55,980 nucleotides of DNA from a virus: positions 1 through 55,980 of the IMG/VR virus record IMGVR_UViG_3300030107_005819; one strand, given 5' to 3'. How positions within the stretch are numbered: the stretch's first letter is position 1; the number at the start of each line of letters is the position of its first letter. The position numbers and the translations under genes are program-made. The notes under the pieces were generated by a model. It saw nothing but the letters and a program-made list of their open reading frames with translations. It had not been told where the DNA came from and searched no databases. Shown one piece after another: positions 1,064-44,286 of this stretch.

Positions 1064-2131
1064 TTACTTGGTGTCGTCTGATTGAAGCATATCAACCATT
1101 CGCTGGGAGACTGGCGTGCCATCGACCTTGGCCTGATGGAGCCGGATTGTGTTTTGGATATCGTTCTCCGATGAGCCGAGCACTGTCCACAACTTCATGG
1201 CAACCTCGGAGGGAAGCTCGAAGAAGTAAGTGGCGAGGTTCTGAACCTGTACATCCGTCAAGGACTCTTTGAACATCTCGGAAGCCTCCAACTTCTCCAC
1301 AAAAGCAGTGTGATCATTGATTCCCCACTCCTTTACAAGCTCGAACTTCCCTTCGTTAATAACATCTGTGATGCTCACTTGTCGGTCATAGTTCTGAACG
1401 AAGTCATTAAAGGCAACAGCGGCCTCGAATCCGAGGAATGCAGAAGCCAAGTTAAAGATTTCTGGGGATGCCCCGCCTTCAAGAAGATTCCCATGGGCTA
1501 CACACTCGTTAAAGCGGTCCCATGAACGACGAGATGGGTATACCTTATTAGGCTCGAACTCATCCTTGTGTTCAAGGTGGCCTCGGTTGTGGTTAATAAA
1601 GTCCCACACCATCTTATCGACGTTATCTTTAGCCCAGTTAAGCCAGTCTTCAACCGATGGCTCAACGTCAAAGACTGTCCAACGGTCAAGCTCGGCAGGG
1701 TCCATCTCTCCAACCTGATACTGCTCCCCGTGTTCTCCACCGTTAATAGCGGCAAAGATGAGGGTTTCAGGGTGAAGCCGATGCCCATTCAGCTTTCGAC
1801 TGTCTGTAAGCTCGAAGATACCCTGACGGACTTCGATTGTGGCACGGTCCACTTCGTCCAAGAAAAGGACAACGGGGCCATCACAAGCGGTCTTAAACCA
1901 ATCAGGAGGACAAAACGATGTAATGTCCCCATCAGTCTTTGGGAGGCCAACAAGGTCGCCTTCGGTCATCTGTGATGCTCGGCGCTCGACCACAGGAAGA
2001 TTAACCTCCTTGGCGAACTGGTATACTACTTCGGACTTCCCAACTCCATGTCGTCCACGGATCAGCACGGGCTTCTTAATAGAAGTAACGTGTGGGACCA
2101 CATGAAGGAATGTTTTAAAATCTACTGCCAT
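1064..2131 (-). CDS. MoxR-type AAA+ ATPase
   Basis: The protein has 355 residues. The Walker A motif GRHGVGKS is at residues 26-33 and a Walker B motif (VVLFLDEVDRA) at about 87-97, followed by a sensor-like AAINGG segment. The layout is that of MoxR-family ATPases, which act as remodelling chaperones together with VWA or metallopeptidase partners. The DUF2201-like gene follows downstream, separated only by a tiny basic ORF, which supports the pairing. A strong promoter lies at 2174-2202. The start at 2131 is the first ATG after the leader. Function in the infection cycle is inference only. Confidence 0.85.
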   Translation of the reverse strand: MAVDFKTFLHVVPHVTSIKKPVLIRGRHGVGKSEVVYQFAKEVNLPVVERRASQMTEGDLVGLPKTDGDITSFCPPDWFKTACDGPVVLFLDEVDRATIEVRQGIFELTDSRKLNGHRLHPETLIFAAINGGEHGEQYQVGEMDPAELDRWTVFDVEPSVEDWLNWAKDNVDKMVWDFINHNRGHLEHKDEFEPNKVYPSRRSWDRFNECVAHGNLLEGGASPEIFNLASAFLGFEAAVAFNDFVQNYDRQVSITDVINEGKFELVKEWGINDHTAFVEKLEASEMFKESLTDVQVQNLATYFFELPSEVAMKLWTVLGSSENDIQNTIRLHQAKVDGTPVSQRMVDMLQSDDTK

Positions 2132-3118: not shown

Positions 3119-3143
3119 AATCTGTTCCTCCCTCCACTATATA

Positions 3144-3320
3144 TTAGGTTCGGTCGGAAATCAAGCCCTGCTCAATTAAGCGGATAGCCATCCGGCCATA
3201 ACTTCCCTGTAAAGTCCAGACGACGCCTGTATCCAAAAGCTGCTGAAATAACTCAACTACTTCAGCCTGTGTGAGTCTTCCCTCTTCATAATCGCTAATT
3301 TGTTCAACGATGCTAAACAC
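3144..3320 (-). CDS. Small conserved-type phage protein (DUF7417-like?)
   Basis: I chose the GTG at 3320 because an AAGGAGAG ribosome-binding site lies five bases before it; upstream in-frame ATGs would overlap the promoter. The 58-residue product contains EVVELFQQLLDTG and LQGSYGR..RLIEQGL. From memory, this matches a small family common in tailed phages (I believe DUF7417), whose function is unknown. It is the first gene after the promoter at 3343-3371. Confidence 0.7.
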   Translation of the reverse strand: MFSIVEQISDYEEGRLTQAEVVELFQQLLDTGVVWTLQGSYGRMAIRLIEQGLISDRT

Positions 3321-3342
3321 TTTCTCTCCTTCTTTATTTATT

Positions 3343-3371
3343 ACTATACAATATATATTATTCTTTGTCAA
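3343..3371 (-). promoter_or_regulatory. Sigma-70 promoter inside the end of the upstream gene
   Basis: TTGACA (3366-3371), 17-base spacer, TATAGT (3343-3348). The last codons of the 3358-3726 gene (LDKE and stop) encode the -35 hexamer. Confidence 0.8.
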
Positions 3372-3726
3372 GAACTTTTCTTTTGGGCACCCTTATTATG
3401 CCCGCCTCATCACGTCGAGCCCTACGGTGACTCAAGTAGTTGAAAAGATTCATGGCAGAAACTCCATGATATCTTTGATGTTTTGGGGGCACCGAGAGTT
3501 TAACCTGCCATTCTCCGGCATCTTCCCAGTCCCTCACCCAGTGAGTCGCCCAGCACCACCTCTTAAAGCCCAATGTCTCTTCGGGGGATCGGGCTCGTTC
3601 GGCTTCTGTCGTGTTGTCGTACATCCTTCTCCTGGCAGCATCAAACTTTTCAATAAGAACACATACTTCTCCGGTGTCCTCAAAGACAATCATATCGCCT
3701 GGAGAAAAAGTAAGGTCTTCAGCCAT
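3358..3726 (-). CDS. Unknown 122-aa protein with GDMI-type start
   Basis: The N-terminus (FSPGDMIVFEDTGEVCVLI) resembles the small GDLV proteins encoded upstream, followed by a basic, Trp-containing region that I do not recognise. Its start overlaps the end of the 3719-3934 gene by 8 bases. The C-terminus ends KVLDKE, where the codons also form the -35 box of the next promoter. I see it as the last, longer member of the GDLV gene run; function unknown. Confidence 0.7.
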   Translation of the reverse strand: MAEDLTFSPGDMIVFEDTGEVCVLIEKFDAARRRMYDNTTEAERARSPEETLGFKRWCWATHWVRDWEDAGEWQVKLSVPPKHQRYHGVSAMNLFNYLSHRRARRDEAGIIRVPKRKVLDKE

Positions 3727-3934
3727 CCTTTTTGTTCACACATTTGCTGATAATCTCCACTCCGTCCGAATACTCAAAGCTCCAGTCGGTGTGGCCAAAC
3801 CAACGGACAAAGATCTGTTTTACCCCATCGCCATTGTCATCTGCAGAGATTTCGGTTACAATCCCCACTCTTTCTTGGCCTCGCCAATGGTCCGTGGTCA
3901 TGGATACGGGTCGAACTAGATCACCGATATTCAT
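3719..3934 (-). CDS. GDLV-family small protein, array member 8
   Basis: This 71-residue protein starts MNIGDLVRP and contains a GIVTEI strand and a KQIFVRWFGH segment, the pattern of a small SH3-like beta-barrel. The start overlaps the upstream array gene by 14 bases. It is the most downstream array member and lacks the LEVISE end (it ends in VNKKDG), consistent with not having another copy behind it. Function unknown. Confidence 0.8.
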   Translation of the reverse strand: MNIGDLVRPVSMTTDHWRGQERVGIVTEISADDNGDGVKQIFVRWFGHTDWSFEYSDGVEIISKCVNKKDG

Positions 3935-4094
3935 TTAGAACCTCCACGAAGGTAGAATATGTAAAGGTGTGGCCAGAGTCATCAAACCAACAAACCGAGA
4001 TGGGGCCGTTGCCATCAGGGTCAGCGTAGACTTCCAGCACGACGCCCACTTTCTTTTCGCCGCCCCAGGGCTTTATTAGATCACCGACTTTCAC
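3921..4094 (-). CDS. GDLV-family small protein, array member 7 (GTG start)
   Basis: This 57-residue protein starts at GTG 4094 behind a near-perfect GGAGGTGAT ribosome-binding site. Its sequence begins VKVGDLIKPW, contains GVVLEVYADPDGNG and ISVCWFDDSG, and ends VEVLNEYR. Both ends overlap neighbours by 14 bases. It closely resembles member 8 (DGNG ... WF), so these two are probably the most recent duplicates. SH3-like fold inferred; function unknown. Confidence 0.8.
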   Translation of the reverse strand: MKVGDLIKPWGGEKKVGVVLEVYADPDGNGPISVCWFDDSGHTFTYSTFVEVLNEYR

Positions 4095-4263
4095 TGATCA
4101 CCTCCAGAATGGCAGAGGGAATGTGTGGGTTTCGACGGCCACCAAACGGATCTCTATCAAATCCATAAAGTTTACACCATGATCCATCCACTTCAGTAAC
4201 GAACCAGATGCCTTTGTTGGTGGCGTTCTGGATAATGAACTGTACTAAATCACCGGGCTTCAT
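4081..4263 (-). CDS. GDLV-family small protein, array member 6
   Basis: This 60-residue protein starts MKPGDLVQF at 4263; an in-frame extension to 4317 exists but ignores the conserved start and ribosome-binding site. It contains GIWFVTEVDGSWCKLYG and ends LEVISESR. The last 14 bases overlap the next gene, so the LEV codons supply its ribosome-binding site. Confidence 0.8.
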   Translation of the reverse strand: MKPGDLVQFIIQNATNKGIWFVTEVDGSWCKLYGFDRDPFGGRRNPHIPSAILEVISESR

Positions 4264-4405
4264 TGACGATCTCCAAACTAAGAGTGTAGTTATTTGCATC
4301 CTCAACAACGCCATCATCGAGCCATCTTATTAAAGTCTCATAAGCATCGCTAACAATGACGATGGCTAGACTCCCACGACATCTTACTAAATCACCGACT
4401 TTCAT
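4250..4405 (-). CDS. GDLV-family small protein, array member 5
   Basis: This short 51-residue protein starts MKVGDLVRC at 4405 behind a GAGAGA ribosome-binding site and ends LEIVNEAR. It is the first gene after the promoter at 4433-4461. The core (AIVIVSDAYETLIRWLDDG) is reduced compared with its relatives. It overlaps the next gene by 14 bases. Confidence 0.8.
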   Translation of the reverse strand: MKVGDLVRCRGSLAIVIVSDAYETLIRWLDDGVVEDANNYTLSLEIVNEAR

Positions 4406-4432
4406 TTTCTCTCTCGTTTAAGTTATATTATT

Positions 4433-4461
4433 ACTATAACAAATATATTATTCTTTGTCAA
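4433..4461 (-). promoter_or_regulatory. Sigma-70 promoter inside the GDLV array
   Basis: TTGACA (4456-4461), 17-base spacer, TATAGT (4433-4438) with an extended TG. The stop codon of the upstream gene (4458-4460) is part of the -35 hexamer. Confidence 0.85.
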
Positions 4462-4610
4462 GACTTTTTTGATTTTACCAAAGTCATTGATTTTTTTAGT
4501 CTTTCCACGGTTTTGTCTTTAGCCATTGCCGCGAGTCCAATGACAATCATGCCGCCAAAGATGCTCCCATAAGTCATCTGACATATCTTTTCTTGTATTT
4601 TATCTTTCAT
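4458..4610 (-). CDS. Small single-pass membrane protein
   Basis: This 50-residue protein has a short charged N-terminus (MKDKIQEKICQM), one hydrophobic segment (SIFGGMIVIGLAAMA) and a basic tail. The start overlaps the end of the upstream array gene by 11 bases, and the stop lies in the next promoter. No family is recognised. Confidence 0.65.
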   Translation of the reverse strand: MKDKIQEKICQMTYGSIFGGMIVIGLAAMAKDKTVERLKKSMTLVKSKKS

Positions 4611-4839
4611 CTTCTGCCCTGCTTATAATTTTTAAATAGTGTAGGTATGATTTTTTAAGATAGCCGGTTGGAAAGAACAACACTTCTGCTACTTGAGATG
4701 AACTAAATGTTCGGTTAGGGTCTTCCCAATAAACGTTCATAACAACCCCAATGTCGCCCTTGTAAATCTCCCAACGATGTCTCACTCCTTGTTCGGGGTA
4801 AGTGGCCATAGTGTATTGAACCAGATCACCCACCTTCAC
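4600..4839 (-). CDS. GDLV-family small protein, array member 4 (GTG start)
   Basis: This 79-residue protein starts VKVGDLVQY at GTG 4839 behind GGAGG. The upstream in-frame extension would not match the family. It contains a GDIGVVMNVYWED segment typical of the family's beta-strands. Its end has diverged (RAEDER) and overlaps the start of the membrane protein gene by 11 bases. Fourteen bases overlap the upstream member. Confidence 0.75.
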   Translation of the reverse strand: MKVGDLVQYTMATYPEQGVRHRWEIYKGDIGVVMNVYWEDPNRTFSSSQVAEVLFFPTGYLKKSYLHYLKIISRAEDER

Positions 4840-5029
4840 TAATAACCTCCAGTTGGCGAGCGGTGAAGGGGACGGGGCCGACGCGCCAACCTCCAAGCAG
4901 CCTCACCCAGTAACGAATCTTCTTCGTCATTGTTGAGCGATCCACCTTTACAATAAACCCCACATTCCTCCTGTCTCTCGAAAGGTTCTCGCCAACGTGA
5001 GCAACCCTCACCATATCACCAACACCCAT
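4826..5029 (-). CDS. GDLV-family small protein, array member 3
   Basis: This 67-residue protein starts MGVGDMVRVAHVG at 5029, chosen over an upstream in-frame ATG because it matches the family and keeps the 14-base overlap. It contains VGFIVKVDRS and YWVRLLGGWR and ends LEVISEGG. The final codons supply the ribosome-binding site and GTG of the next gene. Confidence 0.75.
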   Translation of the reverse strand: MGVGDMVRVAHVGENLSRDRRNVGFIVKVDRSTMTKKIRYWVRLLGGWRVGPVPFTARQLEVISEGG

Positions 5030-5237
5030 CGGTCTTATCCTCTGGATGTCCAAGTTGTAACCTCCAGGCGTCGAAGATTTCCCCTCTCTTGTGAAGAAAA
5101 ATCTTGGCTGTGTCTCCAGATTTGCCATTGTGGGGAGCGTAAGTAAGCGAGATCACTGTCGCCAATCCATCTCTCACCTGGGCGAACCCAGAATCAAACC
5201 CCTGACATTGATAATAAACTAAATCACCGACCTTCAC
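5016..5237 (-). CDS. GDLV-family small protein, array member 2
   Basis: This 73-residue protein starts MKVGDLVYYQCQG and contains LATVISLTY and AKIFLHKRGE. The end (PEDKTDGCW) differs from the family because the overlap with the next gene is read in a changed frame context, yet the overlap length stays 14 bases. SH3-like fold inferred. Confidence 0.75.
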   Translation of the reverse strand: MKVGDLVYYQCQGFDSGFAQVRDGLATVISLTYAPHNGKSGDTAKIFLHKRGEIFDAWRLQLGHPEDKTDGCW

Positions 5238-5424
5238 TTATGACCTCCAGTTCGCTGATATACTCCCATTCTGTTTCTCCCGTGTTCATAAGCAACTCAA
5301 CTTGATATTGATGTTTCTTTGTCCATGTGATGACAAGGCCAAACAAGCCAAAATCGGGCAGAAGCTCTTTGATATCCCCCCCACTATAGACGGGCTTGTA
5401 TTTCACCAAATCCCCAGGCTTCAT
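5224..5424 (-). CDS. GDLV-family small protein, array member 1
   Basis: This 66-residue protein starts MKPGDLVKYKPVYSGG and contains FGLVITWTKKHQYQVELL, then ends LEVISEGR. It is the most upstream array member and lies 8 bases after the 5433-5675 gene. Its end gives the ribosome-binding site and start of member 2 through a 14-base overlap. Confidence 0.8.
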   Translation of the reverse strand: MKPGDLVKYKPVYSGGDIKELLPDFGLFGLVITWTKKHQYQVELLMNTGETEWEYISELEVISEGR

Positions 5425-6180: not shown

Positions 6181-6405
6181 TTACTTTGTTATGCCTTCTT
6201 CTGAAGGGCTTCGTGAAAAGACGGCCACGTTCCGTGTATTACACCACTGAAAGTAGCCCGACTTCATACTCTTTATTCCCACATAGACGGCCCTGCCATT
6301 CTTGGCATAGAATGGACCTTCTGTGACCAACCAGAGAACATGAGACTCTGGATCATATTCTCTTCCAAGGTCTACATAAAAAACTAAATCACCGACGTTC
6401 AGCAT
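6181..6405 (-). CDS. GDLV-family small protein, dispersed copy
   Basis: This 74-residue protein starts MLNVGDLVFYVDLG and contains VLWLVTEGPFY and AVYVGIKSM, following the array pattern of beta-strands. It lies outside the tandem array and lacks the LEVISE end (ends SEEGITK). A GAGG ribosome-binding site precedes the ATG. Confidence 0.7.
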   Translation of the reverse strand: MLNVGDLVFYVDLGREYDPESHVLWLVTEGPFYAKNGRAVYVGIKSMKSGYFQWCNTRNVAVFSRSPSEEGITK

Positions 6406-14706: not shown

Positions 14707-15007
14707 GATCTTTTTCATCGGGGACGAGGCGTAATTTATTTTTCTGAAGTGCTCTTTTTTTCTTTTCGTGTTGATCGTCGAGATCTTGGTGAAAACTCAT
14801 ATACTCTCTGATAAAATCTTCCACAACGTCCTTATTATCCTGGCACCATCGAAAAAACTCCAGCATTAACGTCACATCTTCAGAGCCCGAGAGGTGCTGA
14901 GGGGTGGGGTAGATATAGACTGGCTTACATCCTCGGCGTAAAACGATTGCTCCGTCCTTAATCGTGCTTACAATTTTTCGTGTCTCGTCGTCGTCATCAT
15001 CAAACAT
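14693..15007 (-). CDS. Unknown 104-aa protein
   Basis: The protein starts with MFDDDDDETRKIV, has a helical centre (LMLEFFRWCQDNKDVVEDFI) and a basic then acidic tail ending EKDLDKD, whose codons form the next -35 box. The start overlaps the upstream gene by 8 bases. Function unknown. Confidence 0.65.
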   Translation of the reverse strand: MFDDDDDETRKIVSTIKDGAIVLRRGCKPVYIYPTPQHLSGSEDVTLMLEFFRWCQDNKDVVEDFIREYMSFHQDLDDQHEKKKRALQKNKLRLVPDEKDLDKD

Positions 15008-15239
15008 CTTTTTTTGAAACCACCTTTAACTTTCCTATTTGTTCTAAAATGCCAGCAGCTATCCATTCCTCATCTCCCCTCGCCGTGGGGAGAATATTTA
15101 CTACATACCAGTGGACTTGAATATAAAAGTCTTCCTTGACGTCGGTTACGAAACCCAAGCTCGAAGAAACGGGGTGAGTGATCCCAGGACCGGGCACGTA
15201 TTCCACCACATCCCCTATATTGAACTTTGAAAGCGCCAT
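15000..15239 (-). CDS. GDLV-family small protein, dispersed copy
   Basis: This 79-residue protein contains FNIGDVVEYVPGPG, LGFVTDVKEDFYIQVHWY and a final KLKVVSKKDV, in the same strand order as the array proteins. It is linked to the next gene by an 8-base overlap. Function unknown. Confidence 0.7.
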   Translation of the reverse strand: MALSKFNIGDVVEYVPGPGITHPVSSSLGFVTDVKEDFYIQVHWYVVNILPTARGDEEWIAAGILEQIGKLKVVSKKDV

Positions 15240-15261
15240 TCATAAGAAACCTTTTAATACT

Positions 15262-15882
15262 CTAAATAGACTGCTCCGGCTTATAATACGAATATTCAAC
15301 AAGGTAAGTGAGATCCGTCAAGCATTCTTCCAGCAGACCTGGCCTTCCTCGTTTTTTATAATTCTCCATTAAAAACACGACCTTCTTTATGGCTCGCTCC
15401 GTATTTATAAAATATTCACACGCCTGTAAGAAGCCTCCCAACAACGAAGCGAGCACCGATGAAGACTGGTGTCGAAAAGCGATTCTTTTTCTCGAACCCA
15501 CTCTCACCAAAATAGTCACTGCCACCTTGTCTTGAGAAATTGCTCCTCTAGTTTTAGGATGAATCGTATCCACCCGAAGCTCTTCCATTTCCAAGTCTTC
15601 CGCGAAGCTATAGCGATTTTCTAACCGTGTCTTAATCCCGTTATGAAAAGCGTGAAGAACGCCAATCCCCTCTCCCCTTAAAGGAATAATCTTTTTATGG
15701 TCTTCATAATGGCCAACCAACGTCCCTTCAATGATCGATTTCTCGGAGCCCACATTCTCGTCAACCCTCAAAGGTCCGGACAAAGAAAGGGTGACGTATT
15801 CGTTGAGGACATATTTCTTAATTAACTCCATCATTTTCTCTCGATGGATATCTTCTGGAAGTTTCTTAAGGGTGGGGGTCAT
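15262..15882 (-). CDS. LeuA-regulatory-domain-like protein
   Basis: This 206-residue protein resembles the C-terminal allosteric (dimerisation) domain of 2-isopropylmalate or homocitrate synthase: GEGIGVLHAFHNGIKTRL, a middle stretch with VDTIHPKTRGAISQDKVAVT and a helical SSSVLASLLGGFLQACEYF. No catalytic TIM barrel is present in the gene or next to it. Identification is from pattern memory only. A free-standing regulatory domain could bind a host enzyme or a small metabolite, but this is speculative. The start overlaps the phosphoesterase stop as TAATG. Confidence 0.5.
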   Translation of the reverse strand: MTPTLKKLPEDIHREKMMELIKKYVLNEYVTLSLSGPLRVDENVGSEKSIIEGTLVGHYEDHKKIIPLRGEGIGVLHAFHNGIKTRLENRYSFAEDLEMEELRVDTIHPKTRGAISQDKVAVTILVRVGSRKRIAFRHQSSSVLASLLGGFLQACEYFINTERAIKKVVFLMENYKKRGRPGLLEECLTDLTYLVEYSYYKPEQSI

Positions 15883-22076: not shown

Positions 22077-23645
22077 TTATTTTTCGATAATTGCAAAATT
22101 TGTAGTAATCAAGGTCGACGCCACAGACACGGCATTCTGAAGGGCTGTAGTGGTTACCTTGGCGGGGTCGATAACTCCGGCCTCAAACAGGTCTGTTACC
22201 TCCCCGTCATAAAAATTGACGCCTCGATTCCCTTCTTCATTTAAAACAGTGTGGAGAGTGACATCGGGGGACACACCGGCATTAGAAGCCATCTGCCTAA
22301 TGGGGGCTTTCACTGCCTCTAAGACGATCTGAACTCCGAGGGATTGTTCTTCGTTATCGGTTTCCACCTCGACTCCGTGAGCGGCACGAACCAAGGTTAC
22401 TCCTCCTCCAGCCACGACCCCCTCTTGTTGAGCAGATCTAACAGCTTCAAGAGCATCTTCAATTCGGTGTTTCTTTTCAATCATCTCTACTTCAGACAAG
22501 CCACCGGCTCTAATAATTGCCACTCCACTGGCCAGTCTGGTTATTCGATCCTGAACTCTTTCCGCTTCATGGAGGTTCTCAGTCTGGCCTAATTCCACCT
22601 TAAGAACCTCAATTCTGTCTTCGACCTGATCGATGTCGCCCTGGCCTCCCACGAAGGTGGTCGTAGTTTTGTTAATGTCCACAGTGCTCACCACTCCCAA
22701 GTCTGCCAATTGGACTTCTTTTAATTTTTTTGAGGAAGATCGAGTGAAAAAGGTCGACCCAATAGAGAGGGCCAAGTCGCTTAAAATGTTCCTTCTCTCT
22801 TCCCCATAGCGAGGAGCCTTAACAGCCACCACCCTCATGGTGCCCCGAATAGCGTTCATAATAAGAGCGGCCAGGGCCTGACCTTCCACGTTCTCAGCGA
22901 CAATGAGCAGCGGTCGGTTTTCTCGGGCCACCAATTCCAATGTGGGCAAAATTTGCTCAACAGATTCGATAGACTCGTCCGTGATGAGAACATAACAATC
23001 TTCGTATTTAACGGCTCCCCTTCTCTCATCAGTAATAAATTGAGGAGAGAGATATCCGGATTCAATTCTAAATCCCTCCACGAAATCAAGACTGGTTTCG
23101 ATAGAGCGAGCTTCCTCCACTGTAATGGACCCATCTTTTCCCACTCGGTCGACGGCTGTCGCGACGAGCTTTCCAATCGTCTTATCATTATTAGCTGAAA
23201 TTGTAGCCACATGGGCAATATCGGCTTCGCTGGCGATTGGGCGAGCCATGGCCTTGACATTCGCCACAATGCTTTGTGTCGCTTTGTCCATCCCTCGCTT
23301 AAGTTCCACAGGGGAAACGCCCGCTTTAAGAAATTTCTGAGATTGATTAAGGATTGCTCGGGCTAAAACTGTCGCCGTGGTCGTTCCGTCTCCGGCATCG
23401 CTGTTAGTTTCTTCGGAAGCCTGCTTAATAATTTGGGCTCCCACATTTTCAAACTCATCTTCTAGGTCCACAAACTTGGCGATAGTCACACCGTCCTTCG
23501 TGATGATGGGGCGCTTTCCCTTTTGTTGAAGGATCACGTTCCGTCCTTTGGGGCCAAGAGTGGATGCCACGTTGTCAGCCAGTTTATTAACTCCGGTCAA
23601 CACCTTCTCGTGTAAAGCAGAATCATTACAATACTTTTTAGTCAT
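22077..23645 (-). CDS. groEL: Chaperonin GroEL
   Basis: This 522-residue group I chaperonin has GPKGRNVIL at residues 31-39, [21 protein letters not shown] and a [10 protein letters not shown] segment, the ATPase sites of the equatorial domain; the apical domain is complete. It stops before the GGM-repeat tail of bacterial GroEL. A GroES-like partner is encoded at 36010-36291. Phage chaperonins are known in a few large phages and can fold virion proteins. It has its own promoter and a GAGG ribosome-binding site. Confidence 0.95.
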
Positions 23646-24761: not shown

Positions 24762-25460
24762 CTAAATAATCTCATCAGCAATTCCCAGGTCTACTGCTTC
24801 CTCGGCGGTGAGATATACATTAACTTTCTTGTCCATAAGCTTCTTAAGATAACGCTTGGTCATATCAGTCTCTTCGGCCAAGCACTCAATGTGCCGCTCC
24901 TGCAGATATCTAATCTCATCCATTTCTGCCTCCAGGCTATGGATAGAACCATGACTGGCAGCGATGACACTGTGGATCATAACACGACAATTTTTGGCGA
25001 TCTTACGGTGCCCTTTGGTGCCAGAAGCTAAAAGCAGTACTCCGGCAGACATCACCTTTCCGATCCCAATCGTACAAACATCGGTCTGCTTTCTGGTGAG
25101 GCGGATCATATCATAGATGGCGAACATTTCCGGTGCTGAACCTCCGTGGGTGGAAATTAATAGCTCCAGGGGGTCGTTAACGGTGATCAACTCTGAGTCA
25201 ATGTCTTCCGGGTCGGCCAACTCTTGCCTCTCTGTCAACTTAAGTTGGTTAATGATGTGAAGAGAGTATACTATCTCTGAGGCTATTTCTTCTGTCACCT
25301 CTCCATAAAGAGCGATGGTCCGAATTTTGGGGCCTTCATCCTCTTCAGCGGCGGACCCAAACAAGGCTTCGAGATCGAGCCGGGGTGACACCTCTTCCTC
25401 CCCGGAGTTATCGACCACTTCTTCCTCGGCTTCTTTAATATATTTTCTTTTTCTTCCCAT
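24762..25460 (-). CDS. clpP: ClpP-like protease subunit
   Basis: This 232-residue protein has the catalytic triad in place: S138 in GKVMSAGVLLL, H163 in MIHSV and D210 in LMDKK. The HGGSAPEMFAIYD and EEAVDLGIADE segments are typical of ClpP. An acidic N-terminal extension of about 45 residues is unusual and could be a propeptide or a regulator of assembly. It would form a degradation machine with the phage ClpX, whose IGF docking loop is intact; ClpX is encoded 13 kb away. Confidence 0.92.
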   Translation of the reverse strand: MGRKRKYIKEAEEEVVDNSGEEEVSPRLDLEALFGSAAEEDEGPKIRTIALYGEVTEEIASEIVYSLHIINQLKLTERQELADPEDIDSELITVNDPLELLISTHGGSAPEMFAIYDMIRLTRKQTDVCTIGIGKVMSAGVLLLASGTKGHRKIAKNCRVMIHSVIAASHGSIHSLEAEMDEIRYLQERHIECLAEETDMTKRYLKKLMDKKVNVYLTAEEAVDLGIADEII

Positions 25461-40437: not shown

Positions 40438-40453
40438 TTATACTCCTTTAAAG

Positions 40454-40526
40454 TACGCCCTCTGGGAGTCGAACCCAGGTCTACTCGCTTATAAGACGAG
40501 CGCTCTTACCACTGAGCTAAAGGCGT
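40454..40526 (-). tRNA. tRNA-Ile with UAU anticodon
   Basis: This 73-base cloverleaf has a seven-pair acceptor stem (one G-T pair), D stem GCTC/GAGC, anticodon stem CTCGT/GCGAG with loop CTTATAA, variable loop TAGAC and T stem CTGGG/CCCAG. The anticodon UAU reads AUA (Ile). The 3' CCA is not encoded, so host CCA addition is needed. A promoter lies ten bases upstream. Confidence 0.9.
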
Positions 40527-43179: not shown

Positions 43180-44286
43180 TTACACCTCTTCAATGTCATA
43201 AAATTCCGATGCATCCCCTTCCCGCTTATCAAATTTGAGGATAACTTCCTCATCCATAATTTTCAAGACTCGGCTTTTAAAAGTTTCATCGGCCATCTTT
43301 TCTTTCCATTTAGAAGGCTGAAACTTAACCTCGGTGCCGTCACCCATATCCATGGAATACCATGCTCCGGAAGATTTCAGATACTTCGAAGACTTGACTG
43401 CCTCGAACCAGCTTTCCTCATCCTGAATTCCAATGTCATCTCCCCAGAGGATCTTAAATGTACATTGGCGACCTTGGGTGCCGAAGCGGCTCTTTTTTAA
43501 AGTTGCCTTTACCTCTGAACCAACACGGAAACCGTGGTCGTCGGTAATAAAAGACGCCTTGGCTTTTCGGCCAGTAAGCCAAATACGAAGAGAGTAAGCA
43601 TAAATGAGCGCTTTGCCCCCTGGTGTCATATAAGGCTCAACAAGAGCCTGAGATGGACTCCGAGTAATATTGGTTTTCAACTGGTTAAGAACCAAGAACG
43701 TGGACTGACTGTTGGCGATGGGAACAGTCAATTTGCTCATGCCCTTAGCGAGAATTCGAGCCTTAACGGCCATTGATGAGAGGGGGTCAAAGTCCCCCTG
43801 AACGTCACTGATAGCTGGGGTCAAAGCCAAGCTATCCCAAATAAACAACATTTGACTATCGTTACTTCCTAGAAGATCCTCAATAGTCTCAAGGACAAAT
43901 TCCACAGATTGAGCCTGGACATATAAGAGTCGATCAACGTCACAACCTGCTCGCTCAAGAAATGTCGGGTCAATGGCTGATTCCGAATCAAAATACACCA
44001 CATCAATGCCCATTTGCTGGGCGTTGGCGGCGACCTGGGCTGCCATATAGCTTTTACCCGAGGATTCAAGTCCAGCAATTTCAACGACTTTTCCCACTGG
44101 AATGCCAGCTAACTGGCCGCGGCAGACAATAGAGTCGAGCCATCGAGATCCTGTGGGAATCCACTCTTTAACTTGAGTGGGGTTGTCTTCTTTTAGATTG
44201 TGAGCAACTGAAGCTCCGGCCTTTTTATTGATCATCCCTCTCATATCTGCAATCGAGAGACGACCTGCCTTTTGTTTTTTCGCCAT
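43180..44286 (-). CDS. uvsX: RecA/UvsX-type recombinase
   Basis: This 368-residue protein has Walker A GLESSGKS at 72-79, FIWDSLAL as Walker B, and STFLVLNQLKTNI with the L2-like and TPGGKALIYAYSLRIWL regions of RecA. It would mediate strand exchange and recombination-dependent replication. Its acidic end reads DIEEV. A GAGG ribosome-binding site precedes the ATG. Confidence 0.92.
   Translation of the reverse strand: MAKKQKAGRLSIADMRGMINKKAGASVAHNLKEDNPTQVKEWIPTGSRWLDSIVCRGQLAGIPVGKVVEIAGLESSGKSYMAAQVAANAQQMGIDVVYFDSESAIDPTFLERAGCDVDRLLYVQAQSVEFVLETIEDLLGSNDSQMLFIWDSLALTPAISDVQGDFDPLSSMAVKARILAKGMSKLTVPIANSQSTFLVLNQLKTNITRSPSQALVEPYMTPGGKALIYAYSLRIWLTGRKAKASFITDDHGFRVGSEVKATLKKSRFGTQGRQCTFKILWGDDIGIQDEESWFEAVKSSKYLKSSGAWYSMDMGDGTEVKFQPSKWKEKMADETFKSRVLKIMDEEVILKFDKREGDASEFYDIEEV

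Follow-up and report, generated by a model that had tools for sequence, protein, structure and literature searches.

Tandem arrays of small genes joined by a conserved 14-nucleotide overlap in uncultured, mainly marine tailed phages

The IMG/VR virus record IMGVR_UViG_3300030107_005819 (referred to here as the window, all 55,980 bases of which were analysed) contains at positions 3719-5424, on the minus strand, eight short genes whose products start M-x-x-G-D-[LM]-[VI]. The initial annotation described eight GDLV genes in tandem; all eight are present, but they lie on the minus strand as two sub-arrays of four, A (U1-U4) and B (U5-U8), with a non-homologous open reading frame (ORF) of 50 amino acids (aa) and a gap between them. 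The genes of the array, which we refer to as units, and the intervening ORF are as follows:

5224..5424, minus strand: U1, 66 aa, MKPGDLVKYK...LEVISEGR, first of sub-array A
5016..5237, minus strand: U2, 73 aa, with the C-terminus DKTDGCW in place of LEVIS
4826..5029, minus strand: U3, 67 aa, with its ATG at 5029
4600..4839, minus strand: U4, 79 aa
4458..4610, minus strand: non-homologous ORF, 50 aa, hydrophobic by eye, overlapping U4 by 11 nucleotides (nt)
4250..4405, minus strand: U5, 51 aa, first of sub-array B
4081..4263, minus strand: U6, 60 aa, starting at 4263
3921..4094, minus strand: U7, 57 aa, confidently modelled as a five-stranded SH3/KOW-like barrel
3719..3934, minus strand: U8, 71 aa, the last unit

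Neighbouring units overlap by exactly 14 nt at six junctions, all of which are real, as initially reported:

5218..5248, minus strand: junction U1/U2, GGAGGTCATAAGTGAAGGTCGGTGATTTAGT, overlap 5224-5237
5016..5029, minus strand: junction U2/U3, a 14-nt overlap with a degenerate flank and the Shine-Dalgarno (SD)-like GAGGA
4820..4850, minus strand: junction U3/U4, GGAGGTTATTAGTGAAGGTGGGTGATCTGGT, overlap 4826-4839; identical in the window's nearest array relative, L272, despite a different upstream unit
4244..4274, minus strand: junction U5/U6, GGAGATCGTCAATGAAGCCCGGTGATTTAGT, overlap 4250-4263
4075..4105, minus strand: junction U6/U7, GGAGGTGATCAGTGAAAGTCGGTGATCTAAT, overlap 4081-4094
3915..3945, minus strand: junction U7/U8, GGAGGTTCTAAATGAATATCGGTGATCTAGT, overlap 3921-3934

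These junctions are less uniform than first described, when most were said to combine a LEVISEGR/GG ending, a GGAGG and a following KVGD. The GGAGG does stand at four of the six, with GAGGA and GGAGA at the remaining two, but the upstream gene ends in LEVISEGR/GG at two and in LEVIS at three, and KVGD follows three; the start codons are GTG in three cases and ATG in three. The overlap is kept even by U2, in spite of its aberrant ending. The conserved core of the motif has three exact matches in the window compared with none expected from shuffled window sequence, and the regularity of the overlap is far beyond chance.

Alignment of 493 junctions reveals a conserved block of ~32 nt, TGGAGGTnaTcA-[A/G]TG-AARGTCGGTGAYYTRGT, in which information is high inside and near zero on either side, although these values are inflated by the choice of most loci through an overlapping motif. 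The block encodes the C-terminus of unit n (LEVISESR and its stop) together with the SD and start of unit n+1, such that the proposal that each unit supplies the start signal of its downstream neighbour is supported by this larger set. It is the Leu-Glu-Val codons of the upstream gene that spell the SD. For the Glu of this LEV, GAG is used by 98% of units that have a downstream junction and by 81% of those that lack one, compared with 45% for Glu codons inside units; the DNA of the junction is therefore constrained beyond the protein that it encodes. The length of the overlap is in part a coding consequence, because Gly-Asp written as GGT-GAY contains a TGA at which a preceding gene in that frame stops, 14 nt into its successor; this does not account for the retention of the frame and of the ~32 nt around it.

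A scan of viral contigs with the junction DNA identified at least 119 stretches, but because these loci were selected by the junction itself, we have taken frequencies from 67 homologous loci that were fetched by way of the flanking ATPase gene and not by the motif:

1064..2131, minus strand: AAA ATPase (AAA_5) adjoining the array, the conserved anchor of a variable island in relatives

In relatives such as L207 the AAA ATPase (1806-2876) is followed, two genes on, by a DUF2201 metallopeptidase/VWA-like gene (3122-4336), and this conserved pair anchors the island. Among the 358 overlapping or abutting unit pairs at the 67 loci, 299 overlap by 14 nt and 28 by 4 nt; for non-unit gene pairs at these loci, overlaps are chiefly of 4 or 1 nt, and 25 of 454 overlapping pairs show the 14-nt length. 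Of the 67 loci, 47 have one or more 14-nt junctions and 29 have five or more. The number of units per locus ranges from 0 to 30, spanning up to 21 kb and lying nearly all on one strand, and no fixed set of eight orthologues was found in the relatives. In contigs of ~190 kb every junction match falls within one region around the ATPase. The 1,455 units collected, typically 52-79 aa in length, form about 1,070 clusters when grouped at 60% identity.

In cultured phages a search with the junction DNA gave only chance-level matches (expectation value, E, 2-6), one canonical unit used as query gave none, and the best relatives of the ATPase anchor are at most about 30% identical. Among bacterial and archaeal genomes the junction is found on only four contigs of metagenome-assembled genomes (L280-L283), labelled Deltaproteobacteria, Flavobacteriales, Acidiferrobacteraceae and Methanocellales, which are probably mis-binned phage contigs. 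The phages that carry the arrays are a large uncultured group of mainly marine tailed phages.

Comparison of the units shows that they resemble those of other phages more closely than those beside them. A match in another locus is present for 1,254 of the 1,455 units (median best identity 56%), and a match in the same array for 202 (median 38%), of which only 20 are closer to the array-mate; the units are thus drawn from a shared cassette pool and are not the products of recent tandem duplication. The arrays were at first called self-propagating, but we see no sign of units copying themselves, and most of the change looks like exchange from the pool. In L007 there is one recent pair of array units that are 87% identical. 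We also note that L253 contains a two-unit block twice (3833-4209 and 15001-15386), on either side of the ATPase, a rare within-genome duplication.

Units are added, lost and shuffled at the junction while the junction itself is kept, as was predicted initially. L272 has the order U2'-X-U4' where the window has U2-U3-U4, with the flanking units 86% and 84% identical and U3 replaced by an unrelated unit; its U2 orthologue stands between different neighbours than in the window, and its U8 orthologue (75% identical) has moved, lying directly before U2', at the place that U1 occupies in the window. U5 is absent from L272, its closest relatives being in distant phages (71% in L224 and 63% in L271). 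Over all loci, where orthologous units (at least 70% identical) are followed by a 14-nt junction, the next unit is orthologous in 35 cases and non-homologous in 109, and there are three clean swaps, ten insertions or deletions of one to four units, and 44 orthologue pairs in which both neighbours differ. At these breakpoints DNA identity is ~0.9 up to the junction and then 0.25, the level of random pairs, downstream and upstream alike.

The closest pairs show the same events among genomes that are 97-99.5% identical elsewhere, including insertions, swaps and changes of order. L207 and L208 differ by exactly one unit, with two copies of the seam at the filled site and one at the empty site, and their left flanks are identical at 70 of 70 bases. 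Between L206 and L207 a stretch of 5.2 kb is 97.7% identical, and all similarity is lost from the seam outward. L215 and L269 have flanks about 99% identical; two units that both carry are arranged in reversed order, and the units surrounding this pair differ. In a group of eight contigs with ATPases that share 78-100% identity, one and the same cassette is found at three different positions. Among orthologues in genome pairs with ATPase identities of 60-80%, 21% of units and 42% of large genes retain the same next gene; units move more than large genes, yet the whole region is mosaic.

All eight window units match one family profile, in whose training set they were included, U2 doing so weakly (E 0.002). 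What the family has in common is a first strand with GDLV, strands of the form G-[IVL]-[VI] and V-x-W, and a last strand LEV[IV]; between these strands entropy approaches saturation, bearing out the extreme divergence noted between the fixed ends. An SH3/KOW fold had been suggested as a structural check, and the AlphaFold2 model of U7 (predicted local distance difference test score 90) has five strands and is a confident SH3/KOW-like small barrel. Its Foldseek matches include PcrA Tudor, Spt5/NusG KOW and R67 DHFR at template modelling (TM) scores of about 0.7 and E of at least 0.04, with TM scores of 0.71-0.76 to 5dma and similar values for KOW domains, as well as many uncharacterised phage proteins. 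Matches in BFVD with the barrel fold include A0A516M735, M742, M746, M778, M7Q1, M7Q8, MAU8, MB52 and MB61, near-consecutive UniProt accessions that suggest a deposited, unannotated viral record containing such an array. At the curated Pfam threshold no window unit passes for KOW, Tudor or PWWP, and 68 units give only scattered weak matches; the family profile matches only DNMT3B (7e-5) and NusG (2e-3) in the PDB; and no consistent family is found in PHROGs, where at most nine of the 68 members weakly touch one PHROG of unknown function (best single match 5e-7).

The interior codons of orthologous units have a median ratio of nonsynonymous to synonymous substitution (dN/dS) of 0.20 (387 pairs, none above 1). 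Positive selection and hypermutation are rejected on these values. Because the orthologues are under purifying selection, the diversity of the units is old and kept; the functional diversification that was first proposed has to be qualified accordingly, as fast positive selection is not seen.

It seems likely that the array is a translationally coupled, recombining library of small-barrel accessory-protein cassettes of one gene each. Read in the frame of gene n, the junction supplies the last beta-strand and tail, and as RNA it is the SD and start of gene n+1, whose GGT-GAY codons hold the stop of n. Since the same seam lies at both ends of a unit, a crossover between any two junctions would yield an intact coupled operon; homologous crossover, within or between phages, could add, remove, swap or reorder whole genes. 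The geometry of the junction suggests that translation is coupled by termination-reinitiation. Homologous recombination, by a phage RecA-like protein for example, is the probable cause of the exchanges, to judge from the ~30 nt of homology that the breakpoints share and from empty and filled sites that differ by exactly one unit.

Several observations weigh against this interpretation. Some neighbouring unit pairs have 4-nt overlaps or gaps; at ATPase identities of at least 80% the conservation of the next gene is closer between units (67%) and large genes (74%); the model of U2, the most diverged unit, is all-beta and of moderate confidence, with no clear match; and the wide spread of net charge, centred near zero and ranging from about -8 to +5, does not imply a uniform ligand. 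All of the comparison data are moreover metagenome contigs, and since the junction is a repeat and every sequence an assembly, short-read assemblers could have joined different units at the shared ~30 nt. We consider such an artefact extremely improbable, as the swap between the window and L272 lies between flanks that have diverged on both sides, most junctions differ in sequence, and different assemblies, though possibly of shared samples, agree closely (L222 and L224 at 99.95% over 13.5 kb, L216 and L270 at 99.9% over 20.9 kb).

The units might instead be ordinary paralogues, old in-place tandem duplicates that passively kept the junction and have not been exchanged between phages. The GGT-GAY codons mechanically supply a stop, and the similar pair in L007 and the repeated block in L253 show that duplication happens; but with the best matches in other genomes, and with near-identical genomes that differ by swaps, by one-unit insertions and in unit order, this account is improbable. 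As the main process, tandem duplication is refuted by orthologues scattered over many genomes and by the distance between array-mates. General phage mosaicism, in which illegitimate recombination is followed by selection of intact genes and the seam is conserved for translation and not for recombination, is a somewhat more probable yet still unlikely explanation. Whole-gene exchange is common in phages, and at most mosaic boundaries no shared boundary sequence can be found (PMC3029335); if illegitimate exchange spares only intact genes, breakpoints would likewise be expected to fall at gene ends. Furthermore, unrelated genes sit within arrays with 14-nt overlaps (for example families of 101 and 97 aa, in L222/L224 and L206-L212), with no Pfam match; the 101-aa gene (MKLVRDGIPK...) is flanked by the overlap on either side, as a captured cassette might be, and such genes gain the ending -ESR when they precede a unit because it overprints the next start. 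Against this stand the ~30 nt of shared homology at the breakpoints examined, the empty and filled sites one unit apart between two seam copies, and the turnover visible among closely related genomes.

With regard to function, the chances seem about even that the units are putative host-takeover or counter-defence binders, since they are small, diverse, constrained and fast-turnover accessory proteins confined to a single island; their rapid turnover suggests putative tools used against the host, and binding to host proteins is plausible. A role in phage transcription or translation through binding of nucleic acid or RNA polymerase, after the manner of the NusG/Spt5 KOW or PcrA Tudor domains, is in keeping with the best structural neighbours, which include ribosomal domains too. 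We regard it as somewhat unlikely, however, because net charge is near zero, only the barrel core is shared, rapid turnover would be unusual for core transcription factors, and an SH3 fold, being promiscuous, does not point to any one ligand. A uniform nucleic-acid binder is rejected on the charge spread.

Judged by eye from the translations, the window is a fragment of a large tailed phage, and its genes include a DnaE-type polymerase, ribonucleotide reductase, RecA, ClpX, ClpP, GroEL and a tape-measure-like ORF. Other features of the window are:

3358..3726, minus strand: 122-aa ORF after U8, with an 8-nt overlap and SPGDMIV near its N-terminus
6181..6405, minus strand: isolated GDLV-type ORF, MLNVGDLVFYVDLG..., 74 aa
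10362-11783, 22077-23645 and 24762-25460, minus strand: ClpX-, GroEL- and ClpP-like genes, respectively
40453-40526, minus strand: a single tRNA-Ile, anticodon TAT
43180-44286: RecA-like gene

The 122-aa ORF, which has no match in Pfam or PHROG, is possibly a distant relative of the units or a unit fused to another domain, and the isolated ORF is a probable outlying family member. Several contigs with a RecA close to that of the window have no junctions; of these only G001 (95% RecA identity) was inspected individually, and it stops short of the expected array position.

The arrays address the question of how the mosaic exchange of phage genes avoids breaking expression, as with an exchange seam that is also the translation signal, any order and number of units works. 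They also reveal, in abundant ocean phages, small barrel proteins that make up a very large pool and have not been annotated. Because the content differs even between near-identical phages, this pool is a good place to look for counter-defence and host-takeover proteins and for natural small-barrel binders.

We found no paper describing the motif or the array in the open-access literature, most subscription journals lying outside the search. Integrons carry rows of small one-gene cassettes, all facing the same way, which can be exchanged and come from a large shared pool; they depend on attC sites and an integrase. The outcome is analogous here, with small one-gene cassettes exchanged from a shared pool, but the seam is coding, the cassettes are homologous to each other, and no attC-like sites were recognised; as the coding sequences overlap directly, an attC site could not fit between units. 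Inspection of the listed window ORFs by eye revealed no integrase, although no dedicated integrase search was made.

Short conserved boundary sequences have been proposed for the module boundaries of lambdoid phages, at which, as summarised in PMC3029335, modules could be exchanged by general recombination. The array likewise has a short conserved sequence at its module boundaries, and it is found at the exchange breakpoints both in the identity profile and at the empty and filled sites. Compared with the boundary sequences as that summary presents them, the array differs in that the boundary lies inside a two-frame overlap and is also SD, start and stop, and in that the seam repeats between up to about 30 paralogous units per locus. 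The Start-Associated Sequences (SAS/ESAS) of the Cluster K mycobacteriophages (PMC3203893) include the 13-bp 5'-GGGATAGGAGCCC, located 3-7 bp before the starts of genes of different families across half a genome, with half of the copies accompanied by an inverted repeat. They resemble the array in that an SD-containing sequence is repeated just before numerous small non-structural phage genes of like orientation. In the array, however, the repeated sequence reaches into the coding regions on both sides, and the genes belong to a single structural family and overlap one another in contiguous arrays; the consensus of the junctions differs from the SAS motif.

Prokaryotic gene overlaps are mostly of 4 and 1 nt (about 45% and 15%; PMC3887535), and as with ATGA-type coupling and long unidirectional overlaps (PMC3887535, PMC6728339), the overlap of stop and start in the array could couple translation, although here it is one 14-nt overlap with an embedded SD, repeated hundreds of times. 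The predicted fold of U7 resembles known small barrels such as the PcrA C-terminal Tudor, NusG/Spt5 KOW and R67 DHFR domains, whereas the units have no convincing sequence membership in Pfam or PHROG families. Since neither the boundary sequences nor SAS have paralogous overlapping arrays or a coding seam, we regard the array as a new form of boundary-sequence mosaicism, with a genuine possibility that it belongs in a category of its own. A bolder interpretation, which we offer only tentatively, is that the overlap, as recombination seam, ribosome-binding site, start and stop in one, defines a new kind of viral cassette system, an 'integron without an integrase', in which a population-wide pool of thousands of small-barrel binders would be shuffled by ordinary homologous recombination, each phage receiving a different and always translatable set of counter-host proteins.

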